DNA of 51,485 bases, taken from the NCBI GenBank assembly GCA_003169735.1, contig PNAP01000086.1:1-51485 (forward strand), read 5' to 3'. The position numbers and the translations under genes were made by a program. Of the stretch, positions 1 through 41,032 are shown piece after piece. Source of the DNA: Chloroflexota bacterium (GTDB lineage Bacteria > Chloroflexota > Limnocylindria > Limnocylindrales > CSP1-4). Below the pieces are notes generated by a model that saw nothing but the letters and a program-made list of their open reading frames with translations, had not been told where the DNA came from and ran no database searches. Numbering within the stretch: position 1 is the stretch's first letter; every line of letters starts with the position of its first letter.

Positions 1-660
1 ATCACGCCGTACATGCAGTTCTACCTCCAGTCGGCCGTGGCCGAGAAGGGCATCGACGAAGAGGAACTCGGTCTCGAGCAGGCCGACGCCATCGTCGGGT
101 CGGTGTGGACCAACGTCATCGCCGTCTTCGTGGTCGTGGCGACGGCGGCCGCGCTCTTCGGGAGCGGCATCACGCTCCAGACCGCCGGCCAGGCGGCGGA
201 GGCGCTCAGGCCGGTAGCCGGCCAGTTCTCCGAGACGCTCTTCGCTATCGGACTGTTCGGTGCCAGCGTGCTCGCGGCGACGATCATGCCCATCAGCACC
301 GCCTACGTCATCTGCGAGGCGTTCGGCTGGGAGTCCGGCGTCGGCAAACCGTTCCGCCAGGCACCCGCGTTCTTCGGGATCTACACCTTCGTGCTGTTCG
401 TCGGCGCGGCCATCCTCTTGCTGCCGGGTCTCGACCTGATCGGCATGATCGTGGCCAGCCAGTATCTCCAGGGCCTGCTGCTGCCGGTCATCCTGATCTT
501 CCTGTACCTGCTCGTGAACGACAAGCGGCTGCTGGGCGAGCACGTCAACGGACGTTGGAAGAACATCCTGGCCGCCGTCTCGATCATCCTGGTCGTGCTG
601 CTCGACGGTGCCCTCATCGGCGTCGGGCTCCTCGGGCTGGTGGGGGTTCACGTCGCATGA
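1..660 (+). CDS. NRAMP-family divalent metal transporter, 3' part
   Basis: Partial gene: the frame is open from base 1 and ends at TGA 658-660. The visible 219 residues are the C-terminal half of an NRAMP (MntH-type) Mn2+/Fe2+ proton-coupled importer of the inner membrane. It begins with the motif ITPYMQFYLQSAVAEKG, which matches the conserved loop before a transmembrane helix in this family. Five or six hydrophobic segments follow, including one around LFAIGLFGASVLAATIMPIS. The 5' end lies outside the window, so start and regulation cannot be judged. Its last 47 nt overlap the convergent gene on the minus strand, leaving no room for a terminator between them. It is unrelated in function to the polysaccharide genes that follow. 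Confidence 0.85.
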   Translation: MTPYMQFYLQSAVAEKGIDEEELGLEQADAIVGSVWTNVIAVFVVVATAAALFGSGITLQTAGQAAEALRPVAGQFSETLFAIGLFGASVLAATIMPISTAYVICEAFGWESGVGKPFRQAPAFFGIYTFVLFVGAAILLLPGLDLIGMIVASQYLQGLLLPVILIFLYLLVNDKRLLGEHVNGRWKNILAAVSIILVVLLDGALIGVGLLGLVGVHVA

Positions 661-2107
661 GCGGGGCGACCGACGGGCGGAGCGCGATCTCCTGGAGCCG
701 GGCATGTGCCTCGCTCTCGAGTGGCCCTTCGAGTACGGTGCCATCGATATCGACCCAGGCGTGGCCGCGCAGGACGCCACCCGGCCGGTCGAACCACTCC
801 GCGCCGACGCGCAGCTGCACATCGTGGCTGCCGCCGTCGACGAACCGATAGAGCGTCAGCGCCCGGATGTAGCACGTGTCGCGCCGGCGGAAGTGTGGCA
901 GGCGAAGCCACGGCGCTCGCAGGCGGGCGATCCGGTCGCGGCTCGACCACGGGTCGCTCGCCCTGGGCCGAGCAGCCGCTGCCAGCCCGTCAAGGAACGC
1001 GTCGAGATGGAGGCGTTCCATGTCCGATGGAACGCGCACCACGAACCAGCCGATGCGCAGCAGCAGCGGCAGGTCGCTCGGGGTCCGGATGACCCGCGCC
1101 AGGCGGGCCGTCGCTCCCCACGGCGTCCACCACGGCGACAGGCGTGCGACCAGCCCCTTCCGCGCCAAAGCGCCGCCCGGCGTGCCCGGCGTGCCCAGGG
1201 TGCCCGCGCCACGCCATCGCCGCCGATCCCGCGGTGACCAATACGTCGCCACGAACCCGATGCGCTGCGCCGATCGCTTGATGAACGATCCGCGCGCCAG
1301 CAGGCCACCGTCTCCCCTCGGCGCCAGCGCGGCGTGCGCCGCCACCGGGATCAGTGCCGCCCACGCGCCGGCCTCCCGGCCGACCGACCAGGGTGCGACG
1401 TCGGCGTGGGCTCGCAGGAACTGCGCATAACCCTTGCCGTAGCCGATCTGTTGTTCGGTATAGGCGCGCCAGCCGACCCGATGGCGGTGCATGACCACCG
1501 CCCGTGGCTCGTAGACCATCCGCCCGCCGGCGCCGGCCACCAGCCGGGTGTAGAGGTCGCATCCTTCGTAGGTGACGTAGCGGCCGTCGAAGCCACCCAC
1601 CGCGATGAGCGCCGCGCGCGCGTACAGCACGTTGCCAGGCGGCGCCCACGGGTACCGCGGGTGTGACAGGTGTCGCTCGGCACTGAGGCCGCCGGACCGA
1701 TCGACGAAACGAGCCGCCGCCGTTTCCGAGCGATACCCGATCGTCCGGCCCGCCGCGCCAAGGACCGCCTCGCCGGACGTCCCGGCCGTCTCGACAGCCG
1801 CGAGCAGCGATGCGAGCCAGCTCCGCGTGGGCAGGCAATCCGCGTCGGTGAACGCCACCCACGGCGCGCTTGCCGCCCGGATGCCGGCATTGCGCACGCG
1901 GCCGACCCCATGATCGGTCAGGCGCAGCACGGTCACGCCCGCCCGGAGGGCGATCGCCTCCGAATCGTCGCGAGTCGCCTCGTCGACGCAGACGATGACC
2001 TCGTATTCGGATTTCGCGAGCGACTGGCTGCCGAGCGCCACGAGGCAATCGCCGAGCGTCGCTCGGCCGTCCAGCACCGGGATCACGACCGACACCCGGA
2101 GCGTCAT
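614..2107 (-). CDS. GT2 glycosyltransferase fused to a transglutaminase-like (lasso B2-type) domain
   Basis: A 497-residue two-domain protein. Residues 1-230 are a GT-A family 2 glycosyltransferase: VSVVIPVLDGRATLGDCL, an acidic FTDADCLP motif (DxD-like), and CDLYTRL. A linker (about 230-380) contains a hydrophobic segment near LLLRIGWFVV. Residues 380-470 match the transglutaminase-like protease superfamily typified by lasso-peptide B2 proteins: Cys412 in DTCYIRALTLYRF, His449 in GHAWVDIDG and Asp455 in the same motif form a plausible Cys-His-Asp triad. B2 proteins are leader peptidases; a covalent link to a sugar transferase is not something I know from standard pathways. ATG 2107 overlaps the stop of the upstream GT2 as ATGA, so translation is coupled. 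It is the last gene of a four-gene operon starting near 4410. Substrate unknown. Confidence 0.85.
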   Translation of the reverse strand: MTLRVSVVIPVLDGRATLGDCLVALGSQSLAKSEYEVIVCVDEATRDDSEAIALRAGVTVLRLTDHGVGRVRNAGIRAASAPWVAFTDADCLPTRSWLASLLAAVETAGTSGEAVLGAAGRTIGYRSETAAARFVDRSGGLSAERHLSHPRYPWAPPGNVLYARAALIAVGGFDGRYVTYEGCDLYTRLVAGAGGRMVYEPRAVVMHRHRVGWRAYTEQQIGYGKGYAQFLRAHADVAPWSVGREAGAWAALIPVAAHAALAPRGDGGLLARGSFIKRSAQRIGFVATYWSPRDRRRWRGAGTLGTPGTPGGALARKGLVARLSPWWTPWGATARLARVIRTPSDLPLLLRIGWFVVRVPSDMERLHLDAFLDGLAAAARPRASDPWSSRDRIARLRAPWLRLPHFRRRDTCYIRALTLYRFVDGGSHDVQLRVGAEWFDRPGGVLRGHAWVDIDGTVLEGPLESEAHARLQEIALRPSVAPLMRREPPPARGARRR

Positions 2108-3003
2108 CGGTCGGTCTCAGGCCGCCGCCGGCCCTGCCAGAAGCCCTGCCAGAACCACCAGTTCCAGCGGCGCGCGTAGTGGGCGAACTCGACGTCGTCC
2201 GCGGACCGCCGGCCAAGCCGGCCCTGGATGGCGACGACCCACTCAAGGCCGACGCGTCGTCCGATCCGTCGAACGACGGCGACGCGCTGGCGGCGGCCCC
2301 ACGGAAGGAGATCGGGGTAGCGCCGATACATCAGCGCCATTCCCCGACCATATCCGAGCGCCTGAAGGCGCAGCTCCTCATCCGTTTCGCGGTCGTGGTG
2401 AAGCACCACCGCGCGCGGCCGATGGACGATGGTGCATTTGGTCATGCGGATGAGGCGCACCGAGAAGTCGACATCCTCCAGCGTCGACATCGACTCATCG
2501 AAACCCCCGATGGCCAGCGCCGCATCGCGACGGACGGCCATGTTGCGCGTGTTGGCGTAGGGGATGGGACCGCGCAGGATCTCCGATCCGGGGTCGTGCA
2601 GGCCGTAGCGGACCGTGAACCGCTGAGCCGGCGTGCGCGCCGGATAGGTCGACATGCCACCCATGGCGATTATCGTCGTCGGCTCATCGAATGCGGCTGT
2701 GAGCTCGGCCAACCAGCGGCGGCTCGGCACAGCGTCGGCATCGAGGAACGCGACGATGGCCCCCCGCGCCTCGCGCAAACCGCGGTTGCGAGCGATGGCC
2801 GCACCGCGTCGAGGTTCCCTGAGCACTGTCACGTCCGGTGCCGTGACCATGGCCAGCGTCCCGTCCGTTGAGCCGTTGTCGGCCACGATGATCTCGAACG
2901 GCGGCGCTCCAGCCTGCGCGCGCAGCGCGGTCAAGACGCTCTCGATGGTCCTCGCGCCGTCCAACACCGGGATCACGACGCTGACGAGCGGTGGAGCGCT
3001 CAC
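2104..3003 (-). CDS. GT2 family glycosyltransferase
   Basis: 299 residues. The start is GTG 3003, in a GTGA overlap with the kinase stop. A longer open frame upstream is only the kinase read in another frame. The N-terminus PPLVSVVIPVLDGARTIE, the IIVADNGSTDGT loop, the AFLDADAVPSR acidic motif and EDVDFSVRL are classic GT2 features for transfer from a nucleotide sugar, probably at the cytoplasmic membrane face. The C-terminal 60 residues are basic and Trp-rich, without a clear membrane helix. It resembles the glycosyltransferase half of the next gene (shared VVIPVLDG), so the two may be duplicates, only one of which carries the peptidase-like domain. Acceptor unknown. Confidence 0.85.
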   Translation of the reverse strand: MSAPPLVSVVIPVLDGARTIESVLTALRAQAGAPPFEIIVADNGSTDGTLAMVTAPDVTVLREPRRGAAIARNRGLREARGAIVAFLDADAVPSRRWLAELTAAFDEPTTIIAMGGMSTYPARTPAQRFTVRYGLHDPGSEILRGPIPYANTRNMAVRRDAALAIGGFDESMSTLEDVDFSVRLIRMTKCTIVHRPRAVVLHHDRETDEELRLQALGYGRGMALMYRRYPDLLPWGRRQRVAVVRRIGRRVGLEWVVAIQGRLGRRSADDVEFAHYARRWNWWFWQGFWQGRRRPETDR

Positions 3004-4022
3004 AAGAGGACGGCGTCGACGGCGTCGAGCGCATCGGCAGCGAGGTAAGCGTCGTGGCCAACGTCGACCTGCCATCCTCGGCAGCGGGCCGAGACGCGCC
3101 ACAGGCAGCCGATGATGTCGCGCGCCAGCGCTCGATCGTTGGGGATGACCGTCTGTCGGAGCAGGAGCGAGCTCGACTCGACCTGCGTCAGCGGTCGGAT
3201 GGTGATACCGCGATGGCCGACCGGCCGGTCGAGGAAGACGAGGTCGGTCGGGCATGCCTGTGAAGCCACCCGACCCGGCCACATCCGTTCGATGCTCACG
3301 CGCCGTTTCTCGGTGAACGACGAGTAGGCCGCCTGTGCCGACAGGTCGCCGATCTCCGGGAACCACGCGCCGGCGCCCGGATCGAGGTTGAGCGTCTGGG
3401 CGAGACCGACCATGACCGGCGTTCCGGACATCGCTCCGAGCAGCAACTTGTCGTCGCCAAGCGCGCGCCAGCCGCGACGGACCATCGCCACCGTGAAGCT
3501 GGTCTTCCCGCCGCCGCTCTGGGCACAGGCGATGAGGCCGCGGTCGCCGCGCAGGAGTCCCGCGCCGTGGAGCGGCACCCAGCCGGAGCGTCGCCAGCCC
3601 GTGGTCAGGACCAGGCTCAGGAGATCCTCGAGCTCGATCCATCGGTCGCCTTCGACCATCGCCCGCGGCAGTGACAGTTTCCATCGCTCGCCGCTGTCAA
3701 GGAACCGGCCGACGCCCTCGGCGCCCACGGCAGTGGTCGCGCGGACGCCGTCGACCGTAGCATCGACGCGCATCTGGGCGGCAGCCAGATATCGACCCTC
3801 GGCCGGCTCGCCGGGCGCTTCGGGGACGAGGCGGGTCGAGACCTCGACGCGCCAGGCTGGGCCGGCGATCGGCCAGGCGACGTCGTACAGCGCGAGCGTG
3901 CGATCGATCAGCTCGAGCGCGGGACGGCCGACCCCCGTAACGCTAAGCTCGAGCGGTCCGGCCCGATACCGGGCGGGACCCGCATGGTCACTCGGCGAGC
4001 GGGATGCTGGGATCGAACGCAC
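3000..4022 (-). CDS. HprK-like (HPr kinase-related) P-loop kinase
   Basis: 340 residues. The C-terminal half carries the HPr-kinase signature: His152 in VPLHGAGLL, then AQSGGGKTSFTVAMV (about residues 167-181), a variant Walker A with Ala for the first Gly, and a GDDKLLL segment where HprK has its second acidic motif. The N-terminal 130 residues are unlike HprK. HprK-related kinases of this sort accompany PqqD-like proteins, lasso-type B2 proteins and nucleotidyltransferases; in the paeninodin lasso pathway such a kinase phosphorylates the precursor peptide. HPr itself is not encoded nearby, so the target is probably a peptide or a sugar rather than HPr. ATG 4022 lies inside the PqqD-like gene (35-nt overlap), and the stop overlaps the GT2 start. 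Confidence 0.8.
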   Translation of the reverse strand: MRSIPASRSPSDHAGPARYRAGPLELSVTGVGRPALELIDRTLALYDVAWPIAGPAWRVEVSTRLVPEAPGEPAEGRYLAAAQMRVDATVDGVRATTAVGAEGVGRFLDSGERWKLSLPRAMVEGDRWIELEDLLSLVLTTGWRRSGWVPLHGAGLLRGDRGLIACAQSGGGKTSFTVAMVRRGWRALGDDKLLLGAMSGTPVMVGLAQTLNLDPGAGAWFPEIGDLSAQAAYSSFTEKRRVSIERMWPGRVASQACPTDLVFLDRPVGHRGITIRPLTQVESSSLLLRQTVIPNDRALARDIIGCLWRVSARCRGWQVDVGHDAYLAADALDAVDAVLL

Positions 4023-4410
4023 TCATGATCACGCGCTGAAGCGGTTGGGGCTGACGCTCGATGGTTGGCGTCTGCCAGCCGGCCGGTACCTCGCCCGTTG
4101 GTGCGGCGTCGGCTTCCACCTCTTCGACCAGGCCGAAGTCGATGAGCGCGCCGACCAACTGGCGAACCGCCGCCTCGTCCTCGCTCGGCGCGCCCCAGGC
4201 ACGCGATCGGGCCACCGCGGTGTCCGCTGACGTCCCGGATTCGAAGAGCTGGGTCACCGCCCAACCCGTTGAGTTGAGCTGGAAGAAGTACTTGCTCTCG
4301 AGGTCGAGCAGCAGCGCGCCGTGGTCCAGCACGGTGGCGACCACGTCGGGCCGCAGCACGTAGCAACGGCCATCCGGGACCGGTCCGTCCATCGCGAGCG
4401 TGTCTCCCAT
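3988..4410 (-). CDS. PqqD-like peptide-binding (RRE-type) protein
   Basis: About 140 residues, matching the PqqD/lasso B1 fold, which binds leader peptides of RiPP precursors and presents them to partner enzymes. The characteristic pattern is present: YVLRPDVVATVLDHGALLLD, then KYFFQLNSTGWAVTQLF (conserved LN-S/T-G), then a helical tail ending ALIDFGLVEE. A further 40 Pro/Glu-rich residues follow. The start is uncertain: ATG 4410 or ATG 4392, the latter 11 nt after GGGAG. It is the first gene of the PqqD-HprK-GT2-GT2/B2 operon, transcribed from the palindrome at 4446-4463. No short precursor-like gene with a leader was found beside it, so its peptide partner, if any, is elsewhere or is not a standard RiPP. 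Confidence 0.8.
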   Translation of the reverse strand: MGDTLAMDGPVPDGRCYVLRPDVVATVLDHGALLLDLESKYFFQLNSTGWAVTQLFESGTSADTAVARSRAWGAPSEDEAAVRQLVGALIDFGLVEEVEADAAPTGEVPAGWQTPTIERQPQPLQRVIMSAFDPSIPLAE

Positions 4411-4445
4411 CCACTGCGTCGTCGCAGCCGTGTGCGCACCGCCAG

Positions 4446-4463
4446 GGCCGTAGTCTAACGGCC
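4446..4463. promoter_or_regulatory. Divergent promoter palindrome
   Basis: The 18-bp sequence ggccgtagtctaacggcc has 6-bp perfect arms (ggccgt/acggcc). Its centre reads TAGTCT on the plus strand and TAGACT on the minus strand, so each strand has a TANNNT -10-like hexamer. The plus-strand box lies 9 nt before ATG 4466; the minus-strand box faces the PqqD-like operon. Inferred only from sequence; no -35 element is obvious. Confidence 0.45.
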
Positions 4464-4465
4464 TC

Positions 4466-5326
4466 ATGAAGCTCGATATCGTCACCGTCGCGTGGAACGC
4501 CGGTCCGGAGCTCATCGACGCGGTGCGCTCCGCACGCGCCTTCGGCGGCCATCCCATCGTCGTAGATAACGGCTCGGATCAGGGCACGTTCGAGGATGCT
4601 GTGACCGGGGAGGGAGTGACGGCCGTTCGCCTGCCCGAGAACCGGGGATTCGCAGCTGGCTGCAACGCCGGTGCGGCGGCTGGAGACGCCGATCTCATCT
4701 TGTTCCTGAATCCCGACGCCGAGATCATCGGTGGCCGAGCCGAGGACCTGACGGCCGCCTTTGCCGACCCAGCCCCGGTCATCCTCGGCTTCGACCTGGT
4801 GGATGGCGCAGGCCGACCCATCCCAGCCTGGCGCCCGGCACCAAGCGGGGTCGGGATCGTGGGCGATGTCCTGCGGATCGACGCGGTGCGACGGGCGATG
4901 CGGCGGCCGAAACACGATGCGGACGAGCCTGGCACGTTCCAGAGCGATGGCGGGTTCGTCGTCGGATCGGCGTTCGCGATCCGCCGGGTCGACTGGGCGG
5001 CGCTCGGTGGCCTGGACGATCGATTCTTTCTCTGGTACGAGGAGGTCGACCTCTGCCAGCGCTTCCTCGCGATCGGCGGGCGCTTCCGCCTCTGCGCGGC
5101 GGTGACCGTCCGGCATCACGGAGCGATGAGCTGGCGTCGCATTCCGCGCGTCCGCCGCGCCCGGATCCGAGCCGCGAGTGCCCGACGCTACGCCGCGCGC
5201 CACCTGGGTCGGGGAACCGCTGCCCTCGTGGCGGCGGTCACTCCCGGCGCGCTGTTCATCGGGCTGTGCCTCGACCTTCGCGCCGCGCTCAGTCGGCATC
5301 TCCGACGAAGCGCCGACCGTACTTGA
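4466..5326 (+). CDS. GT2 glycosyltransferase, rhamnosyltransferase (WbbL)-like
   Basis: 286 residues. The motifs NRGFAAGCNAG, ILFLNPDAEI (metal-binding acidic site) and FFLWYEEVDLCQR are the signature of the WbbL/RfbF rhamnosyltransferase-type GT2 group, which moves a deoxyhexose from a dTDP or GDP donor to a lipid-linked glycan. A hydrophobic C-terminal stretch (LVAAVTPGALFIGLCL) probably touches the membrane. Rhamnose donors could come from the rml and gmd/rmd genes further along. It is divergent from the PqqD-like gene, and the start codon is 9 nt after a TAGTCT box. Its 3' end overlaps the convergent nucleotidyltransferase gene by 38 nt. Donor and acceptor are inferred from the family only. 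Confidence 0.85.
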   Translation: MKLDIVTVAWNAGPELIDAVRSARAFGGHPIVVDNGSDQGTFEDAVTGEGVTAVRLPENRGFAAGCNAGAAAGDADLILFLNPDAEIIGGRAEDLTAAFADPAPVILGFDLVDGAGRPIPAWRPAPSGVGIVGDVLRIDAVRRAMRRPKHDADEPGTFQSDGGFVVGSAFAIRRVDWAALGGLDDRFFLWYEEVDLCQRFLAIGGRFRLCAAVTVRHHGAMSWRRIPRVRRARIRAASARRYAARHLGRGTAALVAAVTPGALFIGLCLDLRAALSRHLRRSADRT

Positions 5327-6449
5327 CCGCGAGACGGAACGGCCGCGCTACCGAGTAGAGCGGGAAGAGCGCCGGCGGCAGGGTCGCGCCCCCCCAATCG
5401 GCGCCGCTCGGCGTAAAGAGAGCACTCAGCGCGTAGCGGGCACGGTCGCGACCGCGCTCCAACATGCGGGCGTGGAACAGGAACGCGTCCAACCGTCCCG
5501 CGCGCGGCGCGAACAGCGCCCGCGACACCTCGGCGTGGAGGGTCATCGCCCCGCGATCGCCCCGCGCCTCACTGAGCACCCTGGCCGGGATGGGTCCACC
5601 CGCCATCGAGCGCGCCAGCAGCAGGCCCAATCGGACCATCCGCAGCGTACCGTTCGCTCTCGCCCGAGAGAGCAGCCCGTCCCAGTCAAGGCCCGGCTCG
5701 GCGCGTGCGAGCATCGCGATGTCGGTGATCCAGAGAAGGCGATCCCAGCGGTGCTTCGAGCCGTGCACGCAGAGCGCTTCGAGATCGTCCTCGACGGCGA
5801 GCGCCAAGACCGATGAACGAAGCAAGGCCAGCCGGACCAGCCGCGCCCACGGGTCCCCCGCCGTACGCGCCCCGGCGTAGTAGTTGGGAACCACGGCCCA
5901 GTGCAGCTCGAGCCATAGCCCATCGGTCTCCCGCACGAGCTCGAGTTCGCCCTGGTGGTCGATGTAGGTTTCCTGTTGGCGCGCGGTCATCGGCTTCTCC
6001 GGGCGAAATCCTTCGGCCAGCAGGAGGTCTCGCGCGCGAGGCAGGTCGACGCGCGTCACGAGCACGTCGAGATCGAAGAACGACCGCAGGCTGACGTCGC
6101 CGTAAGCGCGTTGGGCGAGGAGCGGCCCTTTCCATGCCACGGCGCGGATCCCCGCGCGGTCGAGACGGCGAATGACCGCGAGCAGCTCCGCCGTCAAGTG
6201 GAGGTTGTGGCGCTGGTTCTGCGCCGCGCCGCGAGCGAGATCCTCTCGGATGAGCGCCGGCACGTCGTCGCGTCCGGCAAGTGCCCGATCCAGCAGCGGC
6301 AGGAGATTGTGGTCGACGCTCGCGCGGAGGATCCGCGACCATGTCTCCGCGTCGATAGCGGCGAAGCGCGGGGCGGATCTCCCCGGCGCGACGGTTTCGC
6401 GGACCGCCCACAGAAGCGTCGACACGACCGGGTCGTCGCTGCGCGGCAC
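5289..6449 (-). CDS. Nucleotidyltransferase-family protein (NTP_transf_5 type)
   Basis: 386 residues. The central segment AVAWKGPLLAQRAYGDVSLR followed by FFDLDVLV matches the uncharacterised nucleotidyltransferase family PF14907: a conserved Lys-Gly, then a D-x-D that would bind metal and NTP. HLTAELLAVIRRLDRAGI before it and LELHWAVVPNYY after it are also typical. Members of this family sit in lasso-peptide clusters next to HprK-like kinases and in exopolysaccharide clusters with PqqD-like proteins, which is the context here. The start is GTG 6449, 5 nt after the stop of the metallo-beta-lactamase gene, with GGAGG upstream, so it is probably co-transcribed with that gene. The 3' end overlaps the convergent GT2. 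Substrate unknown; a role with the kinase/PqqD operon is inference. Confidence 0.8.
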   Translation of the reverse strand: MPRSDDPVVSTLLWAVRETVAPGRSAPRFAAIDAETWSRILRASVDHNLLPLLDRALAGRDDVPALIREDLARGAAQNQRHNLHLTAELLAVIRRLDRAGIRAVAWKGPLLAQRAYGDVSLRSFFDLDVLVTRVDLPRARDLLLAEGFRPEKPMTARQQETYIDHQGELELVRETDGLWLELHWAVVPNYYAGARTAGDPWARLVRLALLRSSVLALAVEDDLEALCVHGSKHRWDRLLWITDIAMLARAEPGLDWDGLLSRARANGTLRMVRLGLLLARSMAGGPIPARVLSEARGDRGAMTLHAEVSRALFAPRAGRLDAFLFHARMLERGRDRARYALSALFTPSGADWGGATLPPALFPLYSVARPFRLAVKYGRRFVGDAD

Positions 6450-6454
6450 TCGAC

Positions 6455-7846
6455 TCAGCCGCCTCCACGCTCGACGGGGTAGCCGGCCGCATCCCAGTCA
6501 GGCACTCCGCCGCGCACCGCCCGGACATCCTGGAAGCCGGCCCGGCGCAGGAGTCCTGCGGCGACCGAGCTGCGGTAGCCGCTCGCGCAGATGGTGGCGA
6601 TGGGGCGGTCGCGCGGCAGCTCGGAGAGTCGCGCGGGCAGGTCGCCGGCGTTGAGATGCACGGCGCCGGGGACGTGGCCCTCGGCGTACTCGCTTGGCTG
6701 GCGGACGTCGATGAGCAGCAGGTCCGGCTCGCTCGACATCGCCCGGCGAAGGCCCTCGACGCTGATGGCGGCGCCCGATTCGATGGGCAGGCCCGCGTCA
6801 CGCCATGCCGCGAAACCGCCCGCAACGAAGCCGACGATCTCCTCGAAGCCGATGCGCAGCGCCTGGCGGATCTGGGCGTCCCAATCAGCCTCGGCGTCGA
6901 GCAGCAGGACGAGCGGGCGGTCGGGCGGCGCCACCCAGCCGAGCCACGTCCCGAAGGACGAGCCGGCCGGGATGGAGAGCGAGCCGGGGACATGCGAGGT
7001 GGCGTACGCCTCCGGCGCCCGCGCATCGATGAGCAGCGCGTCTGCACTGAGCAGCTCCTCGACCCGGGCGACCGGCAGCGGCACCAGCGCCGGGATCGAG
7101 CCGAGCGGCGCCGGCCCGGCCTGGTTGATCGGCCGCATCCGGGCGAAGTAGCGCGGAAACGCCGGCTGGTCGGCAAGCAGCGCGCGCACGAACGTCTCGA
7201 CATCCTCGATGCCGAGCAGCGGATCGTGGCGCCGCTCATAACCGATGGTGCTCCACGGCGTCGATGCGATGGACTTGGAGCAGAGCGAGCCACCGCCATG
7301 GGTCGGCAGCACCGACACGAAGTCCTCGTGGGTCAGGAGCGCGCCGTGCAGCGAGGCATGCATCGCCCGCGCGAACGGCTCGGCGTTCTCCGCGCCGAGC
7401 AGGTCGGTTCGCCCGACCGCGCCGACCAGCAGCGAGCCACCCGTGAAGAGGAGGATCGGCTCATCGGCGCGCGACCGATCCGCCACCGAGTAGCTGAGGT
7501 GCTCCGGCGTGTGGCCGGGCGTCTCGATGACGCGGAAGTGGAGCGACCCGACATCGAACGCATCGCCGCCGGTGACCTGCCGGTAGGGGTATCGCAACTC
7601 CGCCCGGGCCGCGTGGACGTGCTCCGCGCCGACCGCCGCCGCCAACTCCTTGGCGCCCGAGACATAGTCGTTGTGGAGATGCGTCTCGACGATGTGCGTG
7701 ATGCGTACGCCGTGCAGGCGCGCCTCGTCCAGGTACAGGTCGATGTCCCGGCGCGGATCGACGATCGCCGCCACGCCCCGGCTCTCGTCAGCGATGAGGG
7801 CACTGATGTGCCCGAGGCCGGGGATCAGGTACTGGTGGAGCTCCAT
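6455..7846 (-). CDS. Metallo-beta-lactamase fold / rhodanese protein (persulfide dioxygenase type)
   Basis: 463 residues. Residues 1-230 form an ETHE1-like metallo-beta-lactamase domain: THLHNDYVSGAKEL supplies the H-x-H-x-D metal ligands and TPGHTPEHLSY a further His. Two rhodanese modules follow. The first (about 255-350) has LLLDAEADWD where the active-site Cys loop should be, so it is probably non-catalytic. The second (about 360-463) has ICASGYRSS with the catalytic Cys. The family oxidises glutathione or other thiol persulfides to sulfite and transfers sulfur, in the cytoplasm. ATG 7846 is chosen over an upstream in-frame alternative because it begins the conserved fold and follows a TATCCT box by 8 nt. 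The gene sits between the flippase and nucleotidyltransferase genes; its tie to glycan synthesis is unclear. Confidence 0.9.
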   Translation of the reverse strand: MELHQYLIPGLGHISALIADESRGVAAIVDPRRDIDLYLDEARLHGVRITHIVETHLHNDYVSGAKELAAAVGAEHVHAARAELRYPYRQVTGGDAFDVGSLHFRVIETPGHTPEHLSYSVADRSRADEPILLFTGGSLLVGAVGRTDLLGAENAEPFARAMHASLHGALLTHEDFVSVLPTHGGGSLCSKSIASTPWSTIGYERRHDPLLGIEDVETFVRALLADQPAFPRYFARMRPINQAGPAPLGSIPALVPLPVARVEELLSADALLIDARAPEAYATSHVPGSLSIPAGSSFGTWLGWVAPPDRPLVLLLDAEADWDAQIRQALRIGFEEIVGFVAGGFAAWRDAGLPIESGAAISVEGLRRAMSSEPDLLLIDVRQPSEYAEGHVPGAVHLNAGDLPARLSELPRDRPIATICASGYRSSVAAGLLRRAGFQDVRAVRGGVPDWDAAGYPVERGGG

Positions 7847-7854
7847 CCGGCCCG

Positions 7855-7860
7855 AGGATA
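7855..7860 (-). promoter_or_regulatory. -10-like box TATCCT, leaderless start
   Basis: TATCCT on the minus strand lies 8 nt before ATG 7846, so the transcript would begin at or near the start codon of the metallo-beta-lactamase/rhodanese gene. The box lies between the flippase stop and that ATG. Confidence 0.4.
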
Positions 7861-7868
7861 GCACCGAG

Positions 7869-9368
7869 TCACGGGCTGACCGGGGCCGTTCCCGAGGCAC
7901 CGCGACGCCGGATGAGGCTCAGTATCAGCTCCACGTACCGCCGGGCGAACAGCCACGCCAGCGCCGCATCCAGGGCCACGAAGACCAGCCCGGAGGCGAT
8001 CAGCCCGACCCTGCCGCCGAGCGTCGCCGCCACCAGCCACGCGGCCACACCGGCCAAGGCGGCCAGGACGTAGACGCGTCCGAGCTCGAACCAGGGGAAG
8101 GGCGCCACGGCACGCACCGCACGCGCGCTGACGGCCAGCGCGAGGAGCGCCGAGCCGACGAATGCCAGGCCGCCGCCGGCGATCCCGAACAACACGACGA
8201 GCGGCGGGAAGAGCACGACCATCGTGACCGTGCTGGCAAGGGCCAGCCCGAGCGCCGCTCGGGAGCGGCGCTGGCCGAGCACGAGCGATCGAAGCAGTCC
8301 CGTGGGCACCGTGGCGAGCGTCCCGAGACAGACCAGCTGCATCGCCGGCACAGCCGGGATCCATTTGGCTCCGAACACCTCCGGCACGAGGTACGGCGCC
8401 GAGGCGATGAGCCAGACCTGGACGCCCGCCACCACGAGTCCGCCCACCACGACGAGGTCGGACGCCACCTTGGCGATCCGTCGCGCATCGCCCTGGAGGC
8501 GGCTGAAGGCCGGGAACGTGACCCGCGCCAGGATGTCGTCGACCGTCGCCGCTGCCTGGCCGATGTCGAAGCCGAAGCCGATGCGGCCGATGGCGGTCGC
8601 CGGATCGCCCCCCGCGAGCGCTCCGAACACGGGCACGACCGCGTCGCGTGACGAGGCGATGATGTTCGAGGCCTGGTAGGCGGCGCCGAATCCGAGCTGC
8701 CGTCGAGCGATCCCTCGATCGAAGTGGAGTGGCGGGCGGCGACCCCACCGGAGATTGACGAGCACGGCACCAACTGCGGTCTGACCCACGACCGCGATCA
8801 CGAAACTCCAGACCCCGGCGCCCGAGATGGCAAGGCCGATGGACGTGCCGTAGAACGTGAAGTGCTGGATCACCTCGATCGTCGCCAGCGCCCGGAATCG
8901 GAGGTCGCGCGACAGCATCGCAGCCGGCACCGAGCGGAGGATGATGAGCGGGATGATCAGCGCCGTGACCCGCAGCTGCCATTCGAAGTCAGGCCCGAGC
9001 GTCGGGTAGAACGAATGGATGACCGGCGTCAACAGCCAGACGATGGCGAGGCCGGGGACCCAGATGAACTGCTGGCTGACCCACGCGGTGCCGAGTTCCG
9101 ATGGCGTCGGTTCGTGGTGTTGCTGGACGAGGCCGGCGGCCATGCCCGCCTCACCGACCATGACCAGGACCTGCGAGAACAACAGGATCACGGCGAAGAC
9201 ACCGAAATCGGACGGCAGCAGCAGCCGCGCGAGGACGACGGTGCCGACGATGGTCACGCCACGCATCACGATGGTGCGCAGCAGGAGTTGCACGATGGCA
9301 TCGCGGCCGCGCTGGCCGACGTCGATGGGCACCGGGTCGCCGGTCGGCAGCTCCTCGACCTCGATCAC
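7869..9368 (-). CDS. Polysaccharide flippase (Wzx/MOP superfamily)
   Basis: 499 residues with about 12 hydrophobic segments, matching the polysaccharide-exporter branch of the MOP flippases (Wzx, RfbX, MATE-like). The N-terminal LRTIVMRGVTIVGTVVLARLL followed by LPSDFGVFAVILLFSQVL is diagnostic. Such proteins flip undecaprenyl-diphosphate-linked repeat units from the cytoplasmic to the outer face of the inner membrane. The start is GTG 9368, in a GTGA overlap with the stop of a 20-codon leader frame. The 50-residue frame upstream of GTG 9368 is open and Pro-rich but has no start codon. Its neighbours fit: a polymerase-type protein is divergent at 9469. Transport substrate unknown. Confidence 0.9.
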   Translation of the reverse strand: MIEVEELPTGDPVPIDVGQRGRDAIVQLLLRTIVMRGVTIVGTVVLARLLLPSDFGVFAVILLFSQVLVMVGEAGMAAGLVQQHHEPTPSELGTAWVSQQFIWVPGLAIVWLLTPVIHSFYPTLGPDFEWQLRVTALIIPLIILRSVPAAMLSRDLRFRALATIEVIQHFTFYGTSIGLAISGAGVWSFVIAVVGQTAVGAVLVNLRWGRRPPLHFDRGIARRQLGFGAAYQASNIIASSRDAVVPVFGALAGGDPATAIGRIGFGFDIGQAAATVDDILARVTFPAFSRLQGDARRIAKVASDLVVVGGLVVAGVQVWLIASAPYLVPEVFGAKWIPAVPAMQLVCLGTLATVPTGLLRSLVLGQRRSRAALGLALASTVTMVVLFPPLVVLFGIAGGGLAFVGSALLALAVSARAVRAVAPFPWFELGRVYVLAALAGVAAWLVAATLGGRVGLIASGLVFVALDAALAWLFARRYVELILSLIRRRGASGTAPVSP

Positions 9369-9427
9369 CGCGCGGTCCCAGATGCGTGGCCGCGGGATCG
9401 GCGCGGGCGGGCCGGGGCCGTGATCAC
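9365..9427 (-). CDS. Possible 20-residue leader peptide before the flippase
   Basis: GTG 9427 lies 6 nt after a TATCAT box on the minus strand, so a transcript from that box would start at or next to this codon. The frame runs 20 codons, is Arg/Pro-rich (ITAPARPRRSRGHASGTAR) and ends in a TGA that overlaps the flippase GTG start. This geometry would allow re-initiation at the flippase. It may equally be chance in a GC-rich leader. Confidence 0.25.
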   Translation of the reverse strand: MITAPARPRRSRGHASGTAR

Positions 9428-9433
9428 GCGACG

Positions 9434-9439
9434 ATGATA
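9434..9439 (-). promoter_or_regulatory. -10-like box TATCAT for the flippase transcript
   Basis: TATCAT on the minus strand lies 6 nt before GTG 9427 and about 65 nt before the flippase GTG 9368. It is the only TANNNT hexamer in the divergent gap with the spacing seen at other genes of the window. Confidence 0.35.
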
Positions 9440-9456
9440 CGTGCGGCGCCCGCTGC

Positions 9457-9462
9457 TACCCT
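9457..9462 (+). promoter_or_regulatory. -10-like box TACCCT, leaderless start
   Basis: TACCCT lies 6 nt before GTG 9469, the first codon of the polymerase-type gene, and supports GTG 9469 (or the adjacent GTG 9472) over the later ATG 9478. Confidence 0.4.
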
Positions 9463-9468
9463 GCCGCC

Positions 9469-11040
9469 GTGGTGGCGATGAGCCTCGGTGATCGGGTCCG
9501 GCGCGCGTGGCCGGCGTCGCTCGTGGCGATGGCCGTGGTCGCGACCATCGTGGCGTGGCTGGCATCCGATCGCGGGTTCTCCACGTTCCTCGCCATCGGC
9601 ATCGCCTTCGGCGGCGCCGCCGTGGCCGGCCTGCTGGCCCCGAAATGGCCCGTCGCCGCGTTCGGCGTCCTCTTCGTCCTTGCGTCGCTGACGCGCTTCG
9701 ACGTGGAGCTGCCCATCGGCGCGATGCGCCTCGAGCAACCCGCCATCGCGGTCGTCGTGGCGACACTGTTCGTCTTCCGGGTCAGGATGTCGCTGCCGTC
9801 CATTCGGCCCATCGTGCCCATCTGCGTCGCCGCGGCCGTCTACCTCGCCGCGCTCGCGGCGTCGTCGCTGCTGAACGCCCCCGATCGGGGTGTCAGCCTG
9901 CGCATCGTGGCGTGGACCGGGGTGTCGATGGTCGCCGGAGTCGCGGCCTACCTGCTCACCGCCGGCGCTGCGCTGCGGGCCCGGGCGGTGGAACGACCGA
10001 CGGCATGGATGGTCGGCGCCGGCGCGGCGACGGCACTCGGCGGCATCGCCGCGGCGGTGTTGTTCTACCTCGTCGGACCCTACATCGCGGGCGTCGACGG
10101 TCCGGATTCGATCATCCCACGGGTCCAGCTCTGGGCGTGGGAGGTGAACCTGTATGCCATCTATGTGGCGGCCATCGTGCCGTTGGCACTGGAGGAGTAT
10201 CGGCGCCGACCGAGGCCGCCCATGGCCGCGCTCGTCGCCGCGCTGGTGGCGGGCATGGCGTTGGGCATCACCCGTGGCGCATGGCTCGGACTGGCAGCCG
10301 GCGTAACGCTGTACGCGCTGGTGTTGTTCCGGCAGCGCGTGCCACGCCTCGATCTCGGGCGGGCCGTGGCGGTGACGGTCGGCGGCGCGCTGGTCGGCCT
10401 CGTGCTGGCGTCTGTCCTGCTCGACTCGTCCGTGCAGCTCGACCATCTCATCGCGGCGCTCCCCCCGGTACCGACGGCCACACCCGCGGCATCCGTCTCG
10501 CCGGGATCATCGACGCCGCGGCCGCTGTCGGGATCGCCCACGCCGCGGCCGCTGCCGACGCCGCGGCCGCTGCCGACGCTCCGGCCGGCGGTCGGCTCCA
10601 CCGATTCGACCGTGGCCTTCCGGTTGGACCGCATCAAGCCCGCGCTCGACGACTGGATGACCAGCCCGTTCATCGGGCTCGGCGCCGAGTCGTACGGGCA
10701 GCGCCATGCCGATCCCAGCCAGGGCGGGGCGCCGGACCACATCGCGATCATGGGCCTGGACGTCCTCTATGACTCGGGGCTGGTCGGCGTGGCCGGCCTC
10801 TTGGCCGTGATGCTCCTCGCGGCGCAGGCGTTGTGGCGGTCGGCGCGGCGGGCCGGGTCGACGGGCACGGCGGCGGCCTATCTCGGGGCGCTGACCGTGC
10901 TCGTGGTTGCCTATCAGGCCACCAACGCGCTGCATTTCGCGCTGAATTGGCTGCTCCTCGGAGCGGCGCTCGGGTTCGCCTTCGGCACCGCGCGACGGCA
11001 ACCGAACGAGGACCTTCCGGTGCGAGCGGCCGCGGTCTGA
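9469..11040 (+). CDS. O-antigen polymerase/ligase-type membrane protein (Wzy/WaaL-like)
   Basis: 523 residues and about 11 hydrophobic helices, with a large extracytoplasmic region between residues 325 and 400 near the C-terminus, the layout of O-antigen ligases and polymerases. The segment SPFIGLGAESYGQRHAD followed by HIAIMGLDVLYDSGLVGV corresponds to the conserved G-x-G-x-x and (H)N-x-x-L-x-x-x-x-E/D-x-G region of this family. The loop contains a low-complexity run built on TPRPLP (DNA repeat at 10513-10586). It would join flipped repeat units into a chain or attach glycan to an acceptor outside the membrane. It is divergent from the flippase and followed 5 nt later by a GT4 gene. Polymerase versus ligase cannot be told from sequence. 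Confidence 0.75.
   Translation: MVAMSLGDRVRRAWPASLVAMAVVATIVAWLASDRGFSTFLAIGIAFGGAAVAGLLAPKWPVAAFGVLFVLASLTRFDVELPIGAMRLEQPAIAVVVATLFVFRVRMSLPSIRPIVPICVAAAVYLAALAASSLLNAPDRGVSLRIVAWTGVSMVAGVAAYLLTAGAALRARAVERPTAWMVGAGAATALGGIAAAVLFYLVGPYIAGVDGPDSIIPRVQLWAWEVNLYAIYVAAIVPLALEEYRRRPRPPMAALVAALVAGMALGITRGAWLGLAAGVTLYALVLFRQRVPRLDLGRAVAVTVGGALVGLVLASVLLDSSVQLDHLIAALPPVPTATPAASVSPGSSTPRPLSGSPTPRPLPTPRPLPTLRPAVGSTDSTVAFRLDRIKPALDDWMTSPFIGLGAESYGQRHADPSQGGAPDHIAIMGLDVLYDSGLVGVAGLLAVMLLAAQALWRSARRAGSTGTAAAYLGALTVLVVAYQATNALHFALNWLLLGAALGFAFGTARRQPNEDLPVRAAAV
10513..10586 (+). repeat. In-frame repeat encoding TPRPLP in the polymerase loop
   Basis: Three copies of acgccgcggccgctg start at 10513, 10540 and 10558, and a degenerate fourth starts near 10576. 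They encode Thr-Pro-Arg-Pro-Leu units in the predicted outer loop. The spacing is irregular (27 and 18 nt) but in frame, so slippage would change loop length without breaking the gene. Confidence 0.7.
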
Positions 11041-11045
11041 GCCGG

Positions 11046-12116
11046 ATGCGCCTCAGCTACGACCTGTCCATCCTTCGACATCCGACAGCCGGGACGACTC
11101 GATACGCCGTGGAGCTGTTGCGCGCGATGCAGGCCCAGGTCGGCGCCGACGAGATCGCCACGACCGATGGCTGGCCACGCCTGGCGCGCGGGAGCCGCGC
11201 GCGTCGGGGGCTCAATCTCGCGTCGGACCTCGGCTGGCTGACGCTCGGCGCGGCGGCGGTGGTGGCTCGTCAGAAGAGCGACGCGTGGTTCTCGCCCGCC
11301 AACGTCCTCCCCTTCGCCCTGCCGCGGCCGAAGATCGTGACCATCCTTGACGCGAACGTCGTGGCGGTGGGCGACGACTACGATCGAGCGTATGCGGCGT
11401 ACGCGAGGTGGATGTTTCGCGCGGCGGGCCAGCGAGCGGATGCCATCCTGGCGCTGTCGGAAGACGCTCGGCAGCGCCTCGTCGCCGACCTCCAGGTCCC
11501 GGCGGAGCGGATCGTGGTGACCTACCCGGGTCTCGATCATGCGCTGCGTGTGGCGCCGGGTGACAGACCACCGGGCCTGCCGGCGGCGTATGCCCTGTTC
11601 GTCGGCCAGACCGAACCGCACAAGAACGTCGGCCGACTCGTCGAGGCCTGGTCGCTCGGCGTCCCGGCAGGCGTCGCCCTCGTCATCGCCGGTCCGCCCG
11701 GCCGAGACGAGCCCAGGATCGCCGGACTGATCGACGCCTCGCCGGCTCGAACCAGCATCTGGCGGCTCGGTCGCGTGCCGGAGCAGACGCTGGCCCGCCT
11801 CTACACGGACGCGACCTGTTTCGTGTTCCCGTCGCTGGCCGAAGGCTTCGGACTGCCGCCGCTCGAAGCGATGGCGCGTGGCGTCCCGACGGCGGTCGCC
11901 GACGCGGGAGCGCTGCCGGAGGTCACGGCCGGAGGCGCCATCGTCTTCGACCCATCCTCGCCCGAGGCCATCGCCGCCGCCGTCACCCGCCTCGTGGAGG
12001 ACAGTTCGCTCCGGGCTCGTCTCGCGGTCGATGGCCCGGCGATCACCCGCCGCTATCAGTGGGCAGACACCGCTCGGGCATCCTGGCGGGTCATCCGGGC
12101 GGTCGCCCGTGCCTGA
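11046..12116 (+). CDS. GT4 family glycosyltransferase
   Basis: 356 residues with a GT-B fold. The C-terminal donor domain shows LFVGQTEPHKNVGRLVEAW and the strong FPSLAEGFGLPPLEAMARG motif (E-x7-E of GT4 retaining enzymes). The N-terminal MRLSYDLSILRHPTAGTTRY is the acceptor domain. It would transfer a sugar, often mannose or another hexose, from a nucleotide donor to the growing lipid-linked glycan in the cytoplasm. ATG 11046 is chosen because the fold begins there; the longer frame upstream runs inside the polymerase gene. The stop overlaps the GTG start of the following methyltransferase, so the three genes 9469-12783 form an operon. Confidence 0.9.
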   Translation: MRLSYDLSILRHPTAGTTRYAVELLRAMQAQVGADEIATTDGWPRLARGSRARRGLNLASDLGWLTLGAAAVVARQKSDAWFSPANVLPFALPRPKIVTILDANVVAVGDDYDRAYAAYARWMFRAAGQRADAILALSEDARQRLVADLQVPAERIVVTYPGLDHALRVAPGDRPPGLPAAYALFVGQTEPHKNVGRLVEAWSLGVPAGVALVIAGPPGRDEPRIAGLIDASPARTSIWRLGRVPEQTLARLYTDATCFVFPSLAEGFGLPPLEAMARGVPTAVADAGALPEVTAGGAIVFDPSSPEAIAAAVTRLVEDSSLRARLAVDGPAITRRYQWADTARASWRVIRAVARA

Positions 12117-37941: not shown

Positions 37942-38913
37942 TTGGGAGGAATCTTGGCCGCCGACGCGGTTCAACCGATTCCGCTCGTGTCGATGGTCGT
38001 CGTCGCGTACAACATGAGACGCGAGCTGCCACGGACGCTGACGAGCCTTTCGAGGGGGATGCAGATCGGCGTCGAGGACATCCCGTATGAAGTCGTCGTC
38101 GTTGACAACGGCTCGGACCCACCCGTCGACCCGCTTACGGATCCTGAGGTCACGGTCATCCGGATCCGGGATGCTCAGCCCTCGCCCGCGCGGGCGATAA
38201 ACCAAGGGATCGCCGCATGCCGGGGAGACCTCGTCGGCGTCTTCGTGGACGGAGCGCGGTTAGCGTCTCCCGGGCTGGTCCGACACGCCATGCTCGCCTC
38301 ACGACTGTATCCGAGGGTGGTCATCTCCACGCTCGGATTCCACCTGGGCTCGGATGCTCAACAGCGGACCGTGCTCCAAGGTTACGACGTCGCGGCGGAG
38401 GATGGCCTCTTGGCATCGAGTGGCTGGGAGCAAGACGGCTACCGCCTGTTCCGTATCTCCGTCTTTGCTCAGTCGTCCGGCCAAGGATGGTTCGGGATCA
38501 TCGCCGAGAGCAATGGGCTGTTCATGCCGCGGTCGATGTGGGACGAGCTAGGGGGCTTTGACGAGCGGTTCCAATCGCCGGGCGGGGGTCTCGTCAACCT
38601 TGACACCTATGCCCGCGCCTGCGCTCTTCCCGGCGCCCAGGTCGTCGTGCTGCTCGGCGAAGGCACATTCCACCAAGTCCACGGAGGCGTTGCGACCAAC
38701 GCCGCCGTCTCTCCGTGGGACTCATTCCACGCTGAGTACGTGAGGATTCGCGGACGGGATTATCGTCGGCCGGAGCCCGATCCGCTCTACCTGGGACGTT
38801 TCCACCCCGATGCAGCGTCGACCCTGCTGACCGTCCCGAGCCAAATGGCCGGGTCGCACCTGATCGACGTCGCGCCGGTCATGGGACCGGGAGCGCACTC
38901 GATGCTGCGATAG
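37942..38913 (+). CDS. GT2 family glycosyltransferase
   Basis: 323 residues. LVSMVVVAYNMRRELPRTLT, VVVVDNGSDPPVDP, FVDGARLASPGLV, ESNGLFMPRSMWDELGGFDE and VLLGEGTFHQVHGG give a complete GT2 domain, nearly parallel to the N-terminal domain of the fusion at 31342 (DNGSDPP, DGARLA-P-GL, LLGEGTFHQ shared). The paralogue here lacks the TPR and methyltransferase parts. TTG 37942 is chosen because AAGGAG lies 5 nt upstream; a second TTG at 37954 also has GGAGGA before it. The 3' end overlaps the convergent GT32-pyruvyltransferase gene by 35 nt. Confidence 0.88.
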   Translation: MGGILAADAVQPIPLVSMVVVAYNMRRELPRTLTSLSRGMQIGVEDIPYEVVVVDNGSDPPVDPLTDPEVTVIRIRDAQPSPARAINQGIAACRGDLVGVFVDGARLASPGLVRHAMLASRLYPRVVISTLGFHLGSDAQQRTVLQGYDVAAEDGLLASSGWEQDGYRLFRISVFAQSSGQGWFGIIAESNGLFMPRSMWDELGGFDERFQSPGGGLVNLDTYARACALPGAQVVVLLGEGTFHQVHGGVATNAAVSPWDSFHAEYVRIRGRDYRRPEPDPLYLGRFHPDAASTLLTVPSQMAGSHLIDVAPVMGPGAHSMLR

Positions 38914-40567: not shown

Positions 40568-41032
40568 GTCTGCCCGATCGGAGCGGCCCTCGCCATGAGT
40601 CGACGACCTGCCGCTGGGGTGCAACATACCGCTTCACGACGAGCGCTTGCTCCGGGCACCGCCGCGAAGCTTGGGCGGGTTCGCGAGTGCTGTCCGGCCC
40701 GAACATCGCGCCCCGAGCCAGAGGTTGGCCGTGACGCGGCCACTCAGCTCCGGAGTTCCAGCAGGACGCGCAGCTAGCATCAAGGTGTGACAGTTTCGCC
40801 GCCTGTGCATCCGCGGCGCGCGGCTCGACCGAGTACGCAGCCTCGGCCAGGACGCAGCCGACCACCTGTTCGCCGTCGACATCACCCGGACATCTACGAG
40901 GTCGATGTGGACGGTGGGTCCGGGAGGGTGAGGTTCACCGTGGGTCCATCTACACGCCGCCTCGGTTGCCGGCGCGGTACCGTTAACCGAGGCGGCTGAC
41001 CAGAACAGCCGACTTCTGTCTGACAGCGGAGA
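40568..41032. other. 465-nt stretch without a supported gene; contains a strong inverted repeat
   Basis: No frame on either strand has a recognisable domain or a consistent codon pattern; short open frames here look random. It is the shared 5' region of the divergent GT32-pyruvyltransferase and sulfotransferase-repeat genes. The notable element is the 12-bp inverted repeat at 40956-40996. Confidence 0.6.
40956..40996. repeat. 12-bp perfect inverted repeat
   Basis: gccgcctcggtt (40956-40967) and aaccgaggcggc (40985-40996) are perfect complements around a 17-nt loop that itself contains the palindrome cggtaccg. It ends 36 nt before GTG 41033. No T-run follows, so an operator, an attenuator or a recombination remnant is as likely as a terminator. 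Confidence 0.6.

Follow-up and report, generated by a model that had tools for sequence, protein, structure and literature searches.

A cyclase-less operon of PqqD-like, HprK-like, glycosyltransferase and B2-like genes in a Chloroflexota polysaccharide locus: a possible phosphopeptide module with a precursor-like tail

The window analysed here is the whole of a 51,485-nucleotide stretch (contig PNAP01000086.1, positions 1 to 51,485, of assembly GCA_003169735.1) from a Chloroflexota bacterium of the order Limnocylindrales. On its minus strand, positions 614-4410 hold a tightly coupled operon of four genes, which encode a PqqD-like protein of the recognition element (RRE) type known from ribosomally synthesized and post-translationally modified peptides (RiPPs), an HprK-like kinase, a GT2 glycosyltransferase, and a second GT2 enzyme fused to a B2-type transglutaminase-like peptidase. 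We read the operon, together with a nearby NTP_transf_5 nucleotidyltransferase (NTP5), as a cyclase-less RiPP maturation module set in a polysaccharide locus and similar to the pathways for Linear Polyphosphorylated Peptides (LPPs), with the C-terminal tail of the RRE protein as its most likely precursor; taken as a whole, this reading seems to us about evenly poised between right and wrong. The operon had been noticed in an earlier note made from the sequence alone, and that observation holds: its coordinates are correct, and the families it named (PqqD, HprK-like, B2-like, GT2 and NTP5) were recovered, with graded strength, by domain searches.

Operon structure and the closest described systems

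The open reading frame (ORF) of the PqqD-like protein ends at 3988 and is open to 4557; its start is likely the ATG at 4410, which gives a protein of 140 amino acids (3988-4410, minus strand) with a match to PF05402. The gene for the HprK-like kinase (3000-4022, minus strand; GTG start, 340 amino acids) overlaps it by 35 nt and is joined by a 4-nt GTGA overlap to the GT2 gene (2104-3003, minus strand), which also starts with GTG and encodes 299 amino acids scoring 95.6 bits against PF00535. A second 4-nt overlap, ATGA, connects this gene to the fusion gene (614-2107, minus strand). NTP5 (5289-6449, minus strand; 386 amino acids) scores 175 bits against PF14907, for which the cut-off is 31. The genome carries one PqqD, one B2 and one NTP5 gene, all within this cluster. 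No asparagine-synthetase-like or macrolactam cyclase was found in the operon or in the 92.65%-complete genome, where the sole PF00733 match is GMP synthase, and the absence of a cyclase noted earlier is thus genome-wide.

LPP pathways (Popov et al., Nat Commun, May 2026, PMC13381572) are the closest described system to the window operon and have been reported as restricted to Bacillota. In them an RRE, an HprK kinase and an NTP transferase work without a cyclase to give linear peptides in which one Ser bears several phosphates, the peptides are cut by an RRE-assisted peptidase, and this cyclase-less type has already been described inside capsule loci (PMC13381572). Like an LPP locus, the window has a discrete RRE protein in the operon, an HprK-like kinase with the His-Lys-Asp-Asp set, an NTP transferase (here in a neighbouring, separate transcription unit), a [Y/W]xxP-type motif and no macrolactam cyclase, and both are set inside polysaccharide loci rich in glycosyltransferases. 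LPP loci differ in that they encode a SipW/SpI-like leader peptidase and an MsbA-like exporter, and in that their precursor, with the pattern YxxPxVLxHQxIxFETxxS, is separate. Such a precursor was not found in positions 1-12000, the nearest thing being the WxxPxI of the PqqD tail, and no SpI/SipW-like leader peptidase was found in 614-6449, archaeal-type SpI being confined to other contigs of the genome. Particular to the window, in turn, are the fusion of a B2-type domain to GT2, the presence of GT2 genes inside the operon, and WxxPxI on the RRE protein's own tail. A cyclase-less, kinase-centred, RRE-dependent kind of locus in capsule regions is therefore already described for Bacillota; judged from sequence, what appears to be new is its occurrence in other phyla, the B2-glycosyltransferase fusion, the in-operon GT2 genes and RREs with a precursor-like tail. 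A literature search for HprK-related and PqqD systems by their NCBIfam names found nothing relevant.

Lasso peptide clusters of the paeninodin, pseudomycoidin and Bsf types share with the window a B1 (RRE) protein, a B2 protein, an HprK-like kinase and a nucleotidyltransferase-type protein. They also share the His-Lys-Asp-Asp motif, which is required in lasso kinases (PMC9266682); in the window kinase the corresponding residues, H152, K173, D190 and D191, do not vary across an alignment of eight sequences. The kinase itself falls under every curated cut-off, with TIGR04352 at E 3.6e-7, and a single-protein genome scan with it gave no match. In the kinase tree it sides with kinases of cyclase-less loci (Nitrospira, glycosyltransferase-linked and Tat-linked), opposite the lasso kinases and that of locus L123, at a support of 92/90 that falls just short of the strict threshold and with the window kinase on a long branch. 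A Nitrospira HprK is among its nearest relatives (E 2e-13). Unlike paeninodin-type lasso clusters, then, the window has a kinase outside the lasso kinases, and it has no cyclase in the genome, no ABC transporter and no separate precursor; a lasso precursor with the leader YxxPxL...T(-2) was likewise not found in 1-12000.

The operon might be imagined as a decayed or rearranged paeninodin-type cluster which has lost its cyclase, transporter and precursor. Its four genes are intact and bound by tight translational overlaps, its kinase groups with non-lasso kinases, the same order, again lacking a cyclase, turns up independently in other phyla, and the genome is without a cyclase remnant; all of this speaks against decay, while the NTP5 (closest, among the loci read, to that of lasso cluster L112, at 34% over 349 amino acids), the divergent B2 domain and the existence of lasso clusters in the same class speak for it. 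The candidate was rejected on the kinase tree and the genome-wide absence of a cyclase, and we regard it as very improbable. A lasso set lacking its precursor, as the earlier note described the locus, does not fit either, since the kinase sides with the cyclase-less kinases and precursor-like small ORFs or RRE tails do exist. What survives of its proposed peptide- or protein-linked glycan module are the families, their linkage and a phosphorylated, possibly glycosylated peptide.

The fusion protein has an N-terminal GT2 part (PF00535, 68 bits) that is 38% identical to the GT2 of 2104-3003 and a C-terminal B2-like domain (residues 370-468, at 704-1000) that scores 32.7 bits against PF13471 (cut-off 26). 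Cys412 (872-874) and His449 (761-763) have equivalents in all aligned B2 proteins. Against the lasso B2 model NF033537 the domain reaches 24.1 bits, under the cut-off of 33; the nearest B2 among those compared, from L123, passes it. The AlphaFold model of the fusion was too poor to use (mean predicted local distance difference test score, pLDDT, 45), and a plasmid search for relatives gave matches to GT2 parts only. Both operon GT2 proteins resemble MftF, a glycosyltransferase that glycosylates a RiPP, with TIGR03965 scores of 134-149 bits, far under the 280-bit cut-off. A mycofactocin relative was rejected on that score; neither a radical SAM MftC nor any further mft gene was seen. RRE-GT2 fusions have been noted earlier (PMC7470986, PMC12710340), and lasso clusters often have glycosyltransferases nearby (PMC7533575).

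The recognition protein and its candidate precursor tail

The window PqqD scores 22.5-24.8 bits against PF05402 (cut-off 23.4) and 36 bits against the lasso PqqD model NF033530, under that model's cut-off; its best PDB chain by phmmer is TfuB1 (6jx3, E 8.6e-4). An AlphaFold model built from eleven sequences predicts an RRE fold confidently, with blocks near 83, and the best solved-structure matches of this model are TbiB1 and TfuB1, lasso RREs with bound leader peptides.

Beyond the domain the protein continues into a tail (coding positions 3991-4077, minus strand) that reads W112QTPTIERQPQPLQRVIMSAFDPSIPLAE140, the WxxPxI lying about 16 residues past the domain. Most other PqqD proteins compared, all lasso-cluster ones included, have 0-7 residues there. 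The tail contains [Y/W]xxPx[LVIFA], the motif that lasso and LPP RREs bind (PMC13381572), and in the model a strand at 117-119 just past WQTP and a helix at 122-132 are predicted with moderate confidence. At position +15 from the aromatic residue it has Val (V127), as against Thr in all separate precursors checked. Ile or Val at leader position -2 is known from phosphorylated lasso precursors of the Bsf type (PMC10368454), and paeninodins have a WxxP leader motif; the window tail matches both. Ser130 lies three residues past V127, near the Ser3 position that LppK and BsfK phosphorylate. We therefore treat the tail as a candidate fused precursor. Of the earlier claim that the operon has no precursor, the absence of a separate precursor-like small ORF from 1-12000 stands, and the claim as such is probably wrong, the PqqD protein carrying a precursor-like tail.

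Activity on peptides has been measured for the kinase, RRE and NTP families in the paeninodin, pseudomycoidin and LPP systems (PMC9266682, PMC13381572), and it is therefore natural to read the operon as acting on a peptide that is phosphorylated and possibly glycosylated. By analogy with those systems we infer a substrate, an order of steps and a product. The RRE domain would hold the WQTPTI segment of its own tail, or of a neighbour's, and the HprK-like kinase would phosphorylate a Ser just past this segment, either Ser130 or Ser135. NTP5 and the GT2 enzymes may then add a sugar or sugar-phosphate onto the phosphate; in pseudomycoidin the nucleotidyltransferase-type PsmN is linked to hexose addition on phospho-Ser (PMC9266682). 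Finally, the GT2-tethered B2 domain could cut near V127/I128 and so release a short glyco-phosphopeptide.

If this is true, cyclase-less phosphopeptide pathways, so far described for Bacillota only, would extend to several further phyla, some of them would deliver the precursor by fusing it to the recognition domain, and peptide phosphorylation would be tied to glycosyltransferases within one operon. The operon would also let two matters be tested: the part played by PF14907, so far unexplained and possibly that of transferring hexose to phospho-Ser, and the recurrent siting of such systems in capsule loci. The whole class would escape programs that search for precursors among separate small ORFs.

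Cyclase-less relatives and the weight of the evidence

The association of these genes extends beyond the window. Among 177 genomes of the class, all five with PF13471 over the cut-off fall among the nine with PqqD (hypergeometric 9e-8), and in these five the two genes sit within a few kilobases of each other. Among 126 genomes of the order, eight have a strong PF14907 protein, and these include four of the five with PqqD (3e-5). The linkage is not due to chance; the families are also found together in unrelated genomes, in some cases in the order PqqD-HprK-GT2-GT2-NTP5. Since the other four genomes of the genus, all incomplete, gave no PqqD, B2, kinase or PF14907 match, the window operon is accessory. 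Where the surroundings of a PF13471 gene of the phylum were readable, they mostly proved to be an ordinary lasso cluster, with a cyclase, B1, B2, a kinase and, in many cases, PF14907. In three loci (L104, L107 and L108) a solitary B2-like gene, with neither PqqD nor cyclase, is conserved beside two oligopeptide-type ABC ATPase genes.

Neighbourhoods of the type RRE-HprK(-GT2)-NTP5 without a cyclase recur in Bacteroidota, on a cyanobacterial plasmid, in Nitrospira and in other genomes of the window's phylum. One of the latter, from another family (L123), has PqqD-HprK-B2-PF14907 beside a GT2 and two GT4 genes, with no cyclase on the contig. In Nitrospira (L130-L141 except L132 and L140) the order is purF-B2-PqqD-[37-amino-acid ORF, one or two copies]-HprK-PF14907, and the small ORFs, which read MERQIKPEYVKPALVKHELLRDVTAIQLSRV..., have a lasso- or LPP-like leader. 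A further small ORF, MKYEQPLLLEHGALRDVTGTG..., lies between PqqD and HprK in L066, from a Chloroflexi relative. These ORFs of 37-47 amino acids, with the pattern YxxPxL-(9)-T, directly follow the PqqD/RRE gene; short ORFs beside homologous operons, which the earlier note had proposed to look for, thus exist, and cyclase-less cassettes therefore do have precursors. The Nitrospira cassette shares with the window a B2 with GHAW, an RRE, a kinase, an NTP5 and a locus without a cyclase, and differs in its separate YxxPxL...T ORFs, its unfused B2 and its lack of a glycosyltransferase. It is apparently an undescribed linear phosphopeptide-type cluster.

Several further cassettes were seen alongside these. 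In L134 (8365-8478) and its equivalents in L131, L133, L137, L138 and L139 the small ORF has 37-40 amino acids, reads YVKPALVKHELLRDVTAIQLSRV and is sometimes duplicated. L066 (8959-12939; the same as L132) is a row of two ATP-grasp-like genes, PqqD, the 47-amino-acid YxxPxL precursor-like ORF and the HprK-like kinase. Four loci (L068:6975-8976, L069:8607-10585, L070:3894-8005 and L071:3199-5545) combine PqqD and an HprK-like kinase with a protein of about 190-245 amino acids that bears a Tat-like signal; PF14907 usually accompanies them, with no cyclase; to judge from the gene content, the secreted protein may be the kinase's substrate.

A second group is linked to glycosyltransferases (L144, L145, L159-L161 and L195-L203). 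The order PqqD-HprK-GT2-GT2-PF14907 is found, with small variations, in a Dyadobacter genome and three others of that family: Dyadobacter bucti (L144) has PqqD-HprK-GT2-GT2-ABC-NTP5, L160 has PqqD-HprK-GT2-GT2-NTP5 followed by an Amj flippase gene, L159 has PqqD, an HprK::GT2 fusion and NTP5, and in L161 the GT2 genes are placed behind PqqD. L159 and L161 also carry a gene of 268-269 amino acids similar to the Amj of L160. The fusion in L159 (6084-7931) is a single protein of 615 amino acids, which suggests that kinase and glycosyltransferase work together. The Crinalium plasmid pCRI9333.04 (L145) has PqqD-PF14907-HPr kinase-FkbM-GT. Within the window's phylum, L200 has PqqD-HprK-GT2 inside a polysaccharide locus and L203 has PF14907-PqqD-HprK-GT4-GT2. 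PqqD proteins of this group end in a tail of 43-58 residues with the consensus [FY]xxPxLExYTDMQDLLxLDPIHxxDxxxGWP, which in L203 is slightly degraded and in L144 has YIPGRF instead of the first motif. Run over 400 genomes of the phylum, a profile built from these proteins gave nine matches that cover the tail, eight extending to model position 139-140 and one to 127, and nearly all others stop near position 90. No described function for these neighbourhoods was found in the literature.

The window resembles this DPIH-tail group in gene order (PqqD-HprK-GT2(-GT2), NTP5 nearby), in the absence of a cyclase and in having a tailed PqqD with aromatic-xxP-x-aliphatic. The group's tails have a strong DPIH/GWP consensus; the window tail is without it, and that first motif is all they have in common. 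A broader proposal is that recognition element and precursor are one polypeptide, the tail being phosphorylated and glycosylated within the operon and release by B2 being optional, and that the family would span Bacteroidota, Cyanobacteriota and the window's phylum as an arm of LPP-like pathways outside Bacillota. We hold this proposal plausible, if somewhat more apt to fail than to stand.

Several observations weigh against the tail as precursor and against the module as we read it. The window tail as a DPIH-type tail had to be rejected, 487 of 5000 shuffles scoring equally well against the profile. A composite of the tail's motifs arises in shuffles at a rate of 0.0012 (0.12%), as against 5% for the first motif alone, with the later parts of the composite having been picked after the tail had been seen. 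The last 12 tail residues overlap the start of the kinase gene, and no orthologous operon by which to judge conservation of the tail was found among the 126 genomes of the order. Taken by itself, the similarity of the tail is weak evidence. DPIH-type tails are without a Ser at the expected core position, and for this reason the chemistry of that group may differ; none of the tail-bearing relatives examined has a B2 domain. The acid of the window's B2 domain is Glu460 (728-730) at His+11, versus +12 in most homologues; of the PF13471 match and Cys-His-Asp arrangement that the earlier note had set as a check, the match, the Cys and the His are there and the acid is shifted, with NF033537 below its cut-off; some B2 proteins from complete lasso clusters likewise lack an acid at the usual place. 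NTP5 and the divergent GT2 form transcription units apart from the operon: NTP5 shares its strand, but the divergent GT2 interrupts. Finally, the operon is without an exporter, no ABC protein or MsbA-like exporter occurring among the annotated genes of 1-12116, in line with the absence of a transporter noted earlier.

Some of these points would be accommodated if the module were LPP-like with a separate precursor elsewhere in the genome and the PqqD tail were a linker or remnant. In every one of the LPP, lasso, Nitrospira and L066 systems the precursor is separate (PMC13381572), RRE specificity is loose in some phyla, making a distant precursor possible, and the window tail does not significantly match the conserved tail family. 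In the cyclase-less loci found, however, a separate precursor directly adjoins the RRE gene, whereas 1-12000 of the window holds no precursor-like small ORF, and a mere linker sits poorly with the lack of any tail in most PqqD proteins compared and in all lasso ones. We consider a distant precursor unlikely.

Polysaccharide setting and neighbouring genes

The operon lies beside polysaccharide genes whose membership of the module is only putative: a Wzx-type flippase (7869-9368, minus strand), an O-antigen ligase/Wzy-like protein (9469-11040, plus strand) and a GT4 (11046-12116, plus strand). Between the operon and NTP5 lies the divergent GT2 (4466-5326, plus strand; 286 amino acids, PF00535 42.7 bits). 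With such neighbours, the kinase could instead phosphorylate a sugar, a lipid carrier or a glycosyltransferase and so gate glycan assembly, the RRE serving as scaffold or regulator and the B2 domain being structural. The adjoining Wzx/Wzy/GT4 genes, the GT2 enzymes of the operon, the Amj flippase after NTP5 in L160 (with the similar gene in L159 and L161) and the HprK-like domains fused into large membrane proteins in the window's own family (L015, L018 and L020) are consistent with this. RRE domains bind peptides in the cases studied, however, RRE-paired kinases of this type act on peptide Ser (PMC9266682, PMC13381572, PMC10368454), and in homologous loci the RRE is accompanied by conserved peptide tails or precursors; a role on the polysaccharide side thus seems improbable to us, and a peptide module is preferred.

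The membrane proteins of L015 (5279-8872), L018 and L020 have about 1200 amino acids, with the HprK-like P-loop domain in the N-terminal third and flanked by apparent membrane-spanning regions (GtrA-like and mannosyltransferase-like by eye). An anti-phage system was rejected, the window proteins having no PADLOC match. Between the NTP5 and flippase genes, 6455-7864 (minus strand) encodes a metallo-beta-lactamase fold protein with two rhodanese domains, which likely belongs to sulfur metabolism and is unrelated to the module. A second long glycan region occupies window positions 21891-51287, with GT4 and GT2 genes, nucleotide-sugar enzymes, TylF methyltransferases, a sulfotransferase-like protein, a Caps_synth/pyruvyl transferase fusion (38879-40627), and FdtA/hexapeptide and DegT aminotransferase genes.

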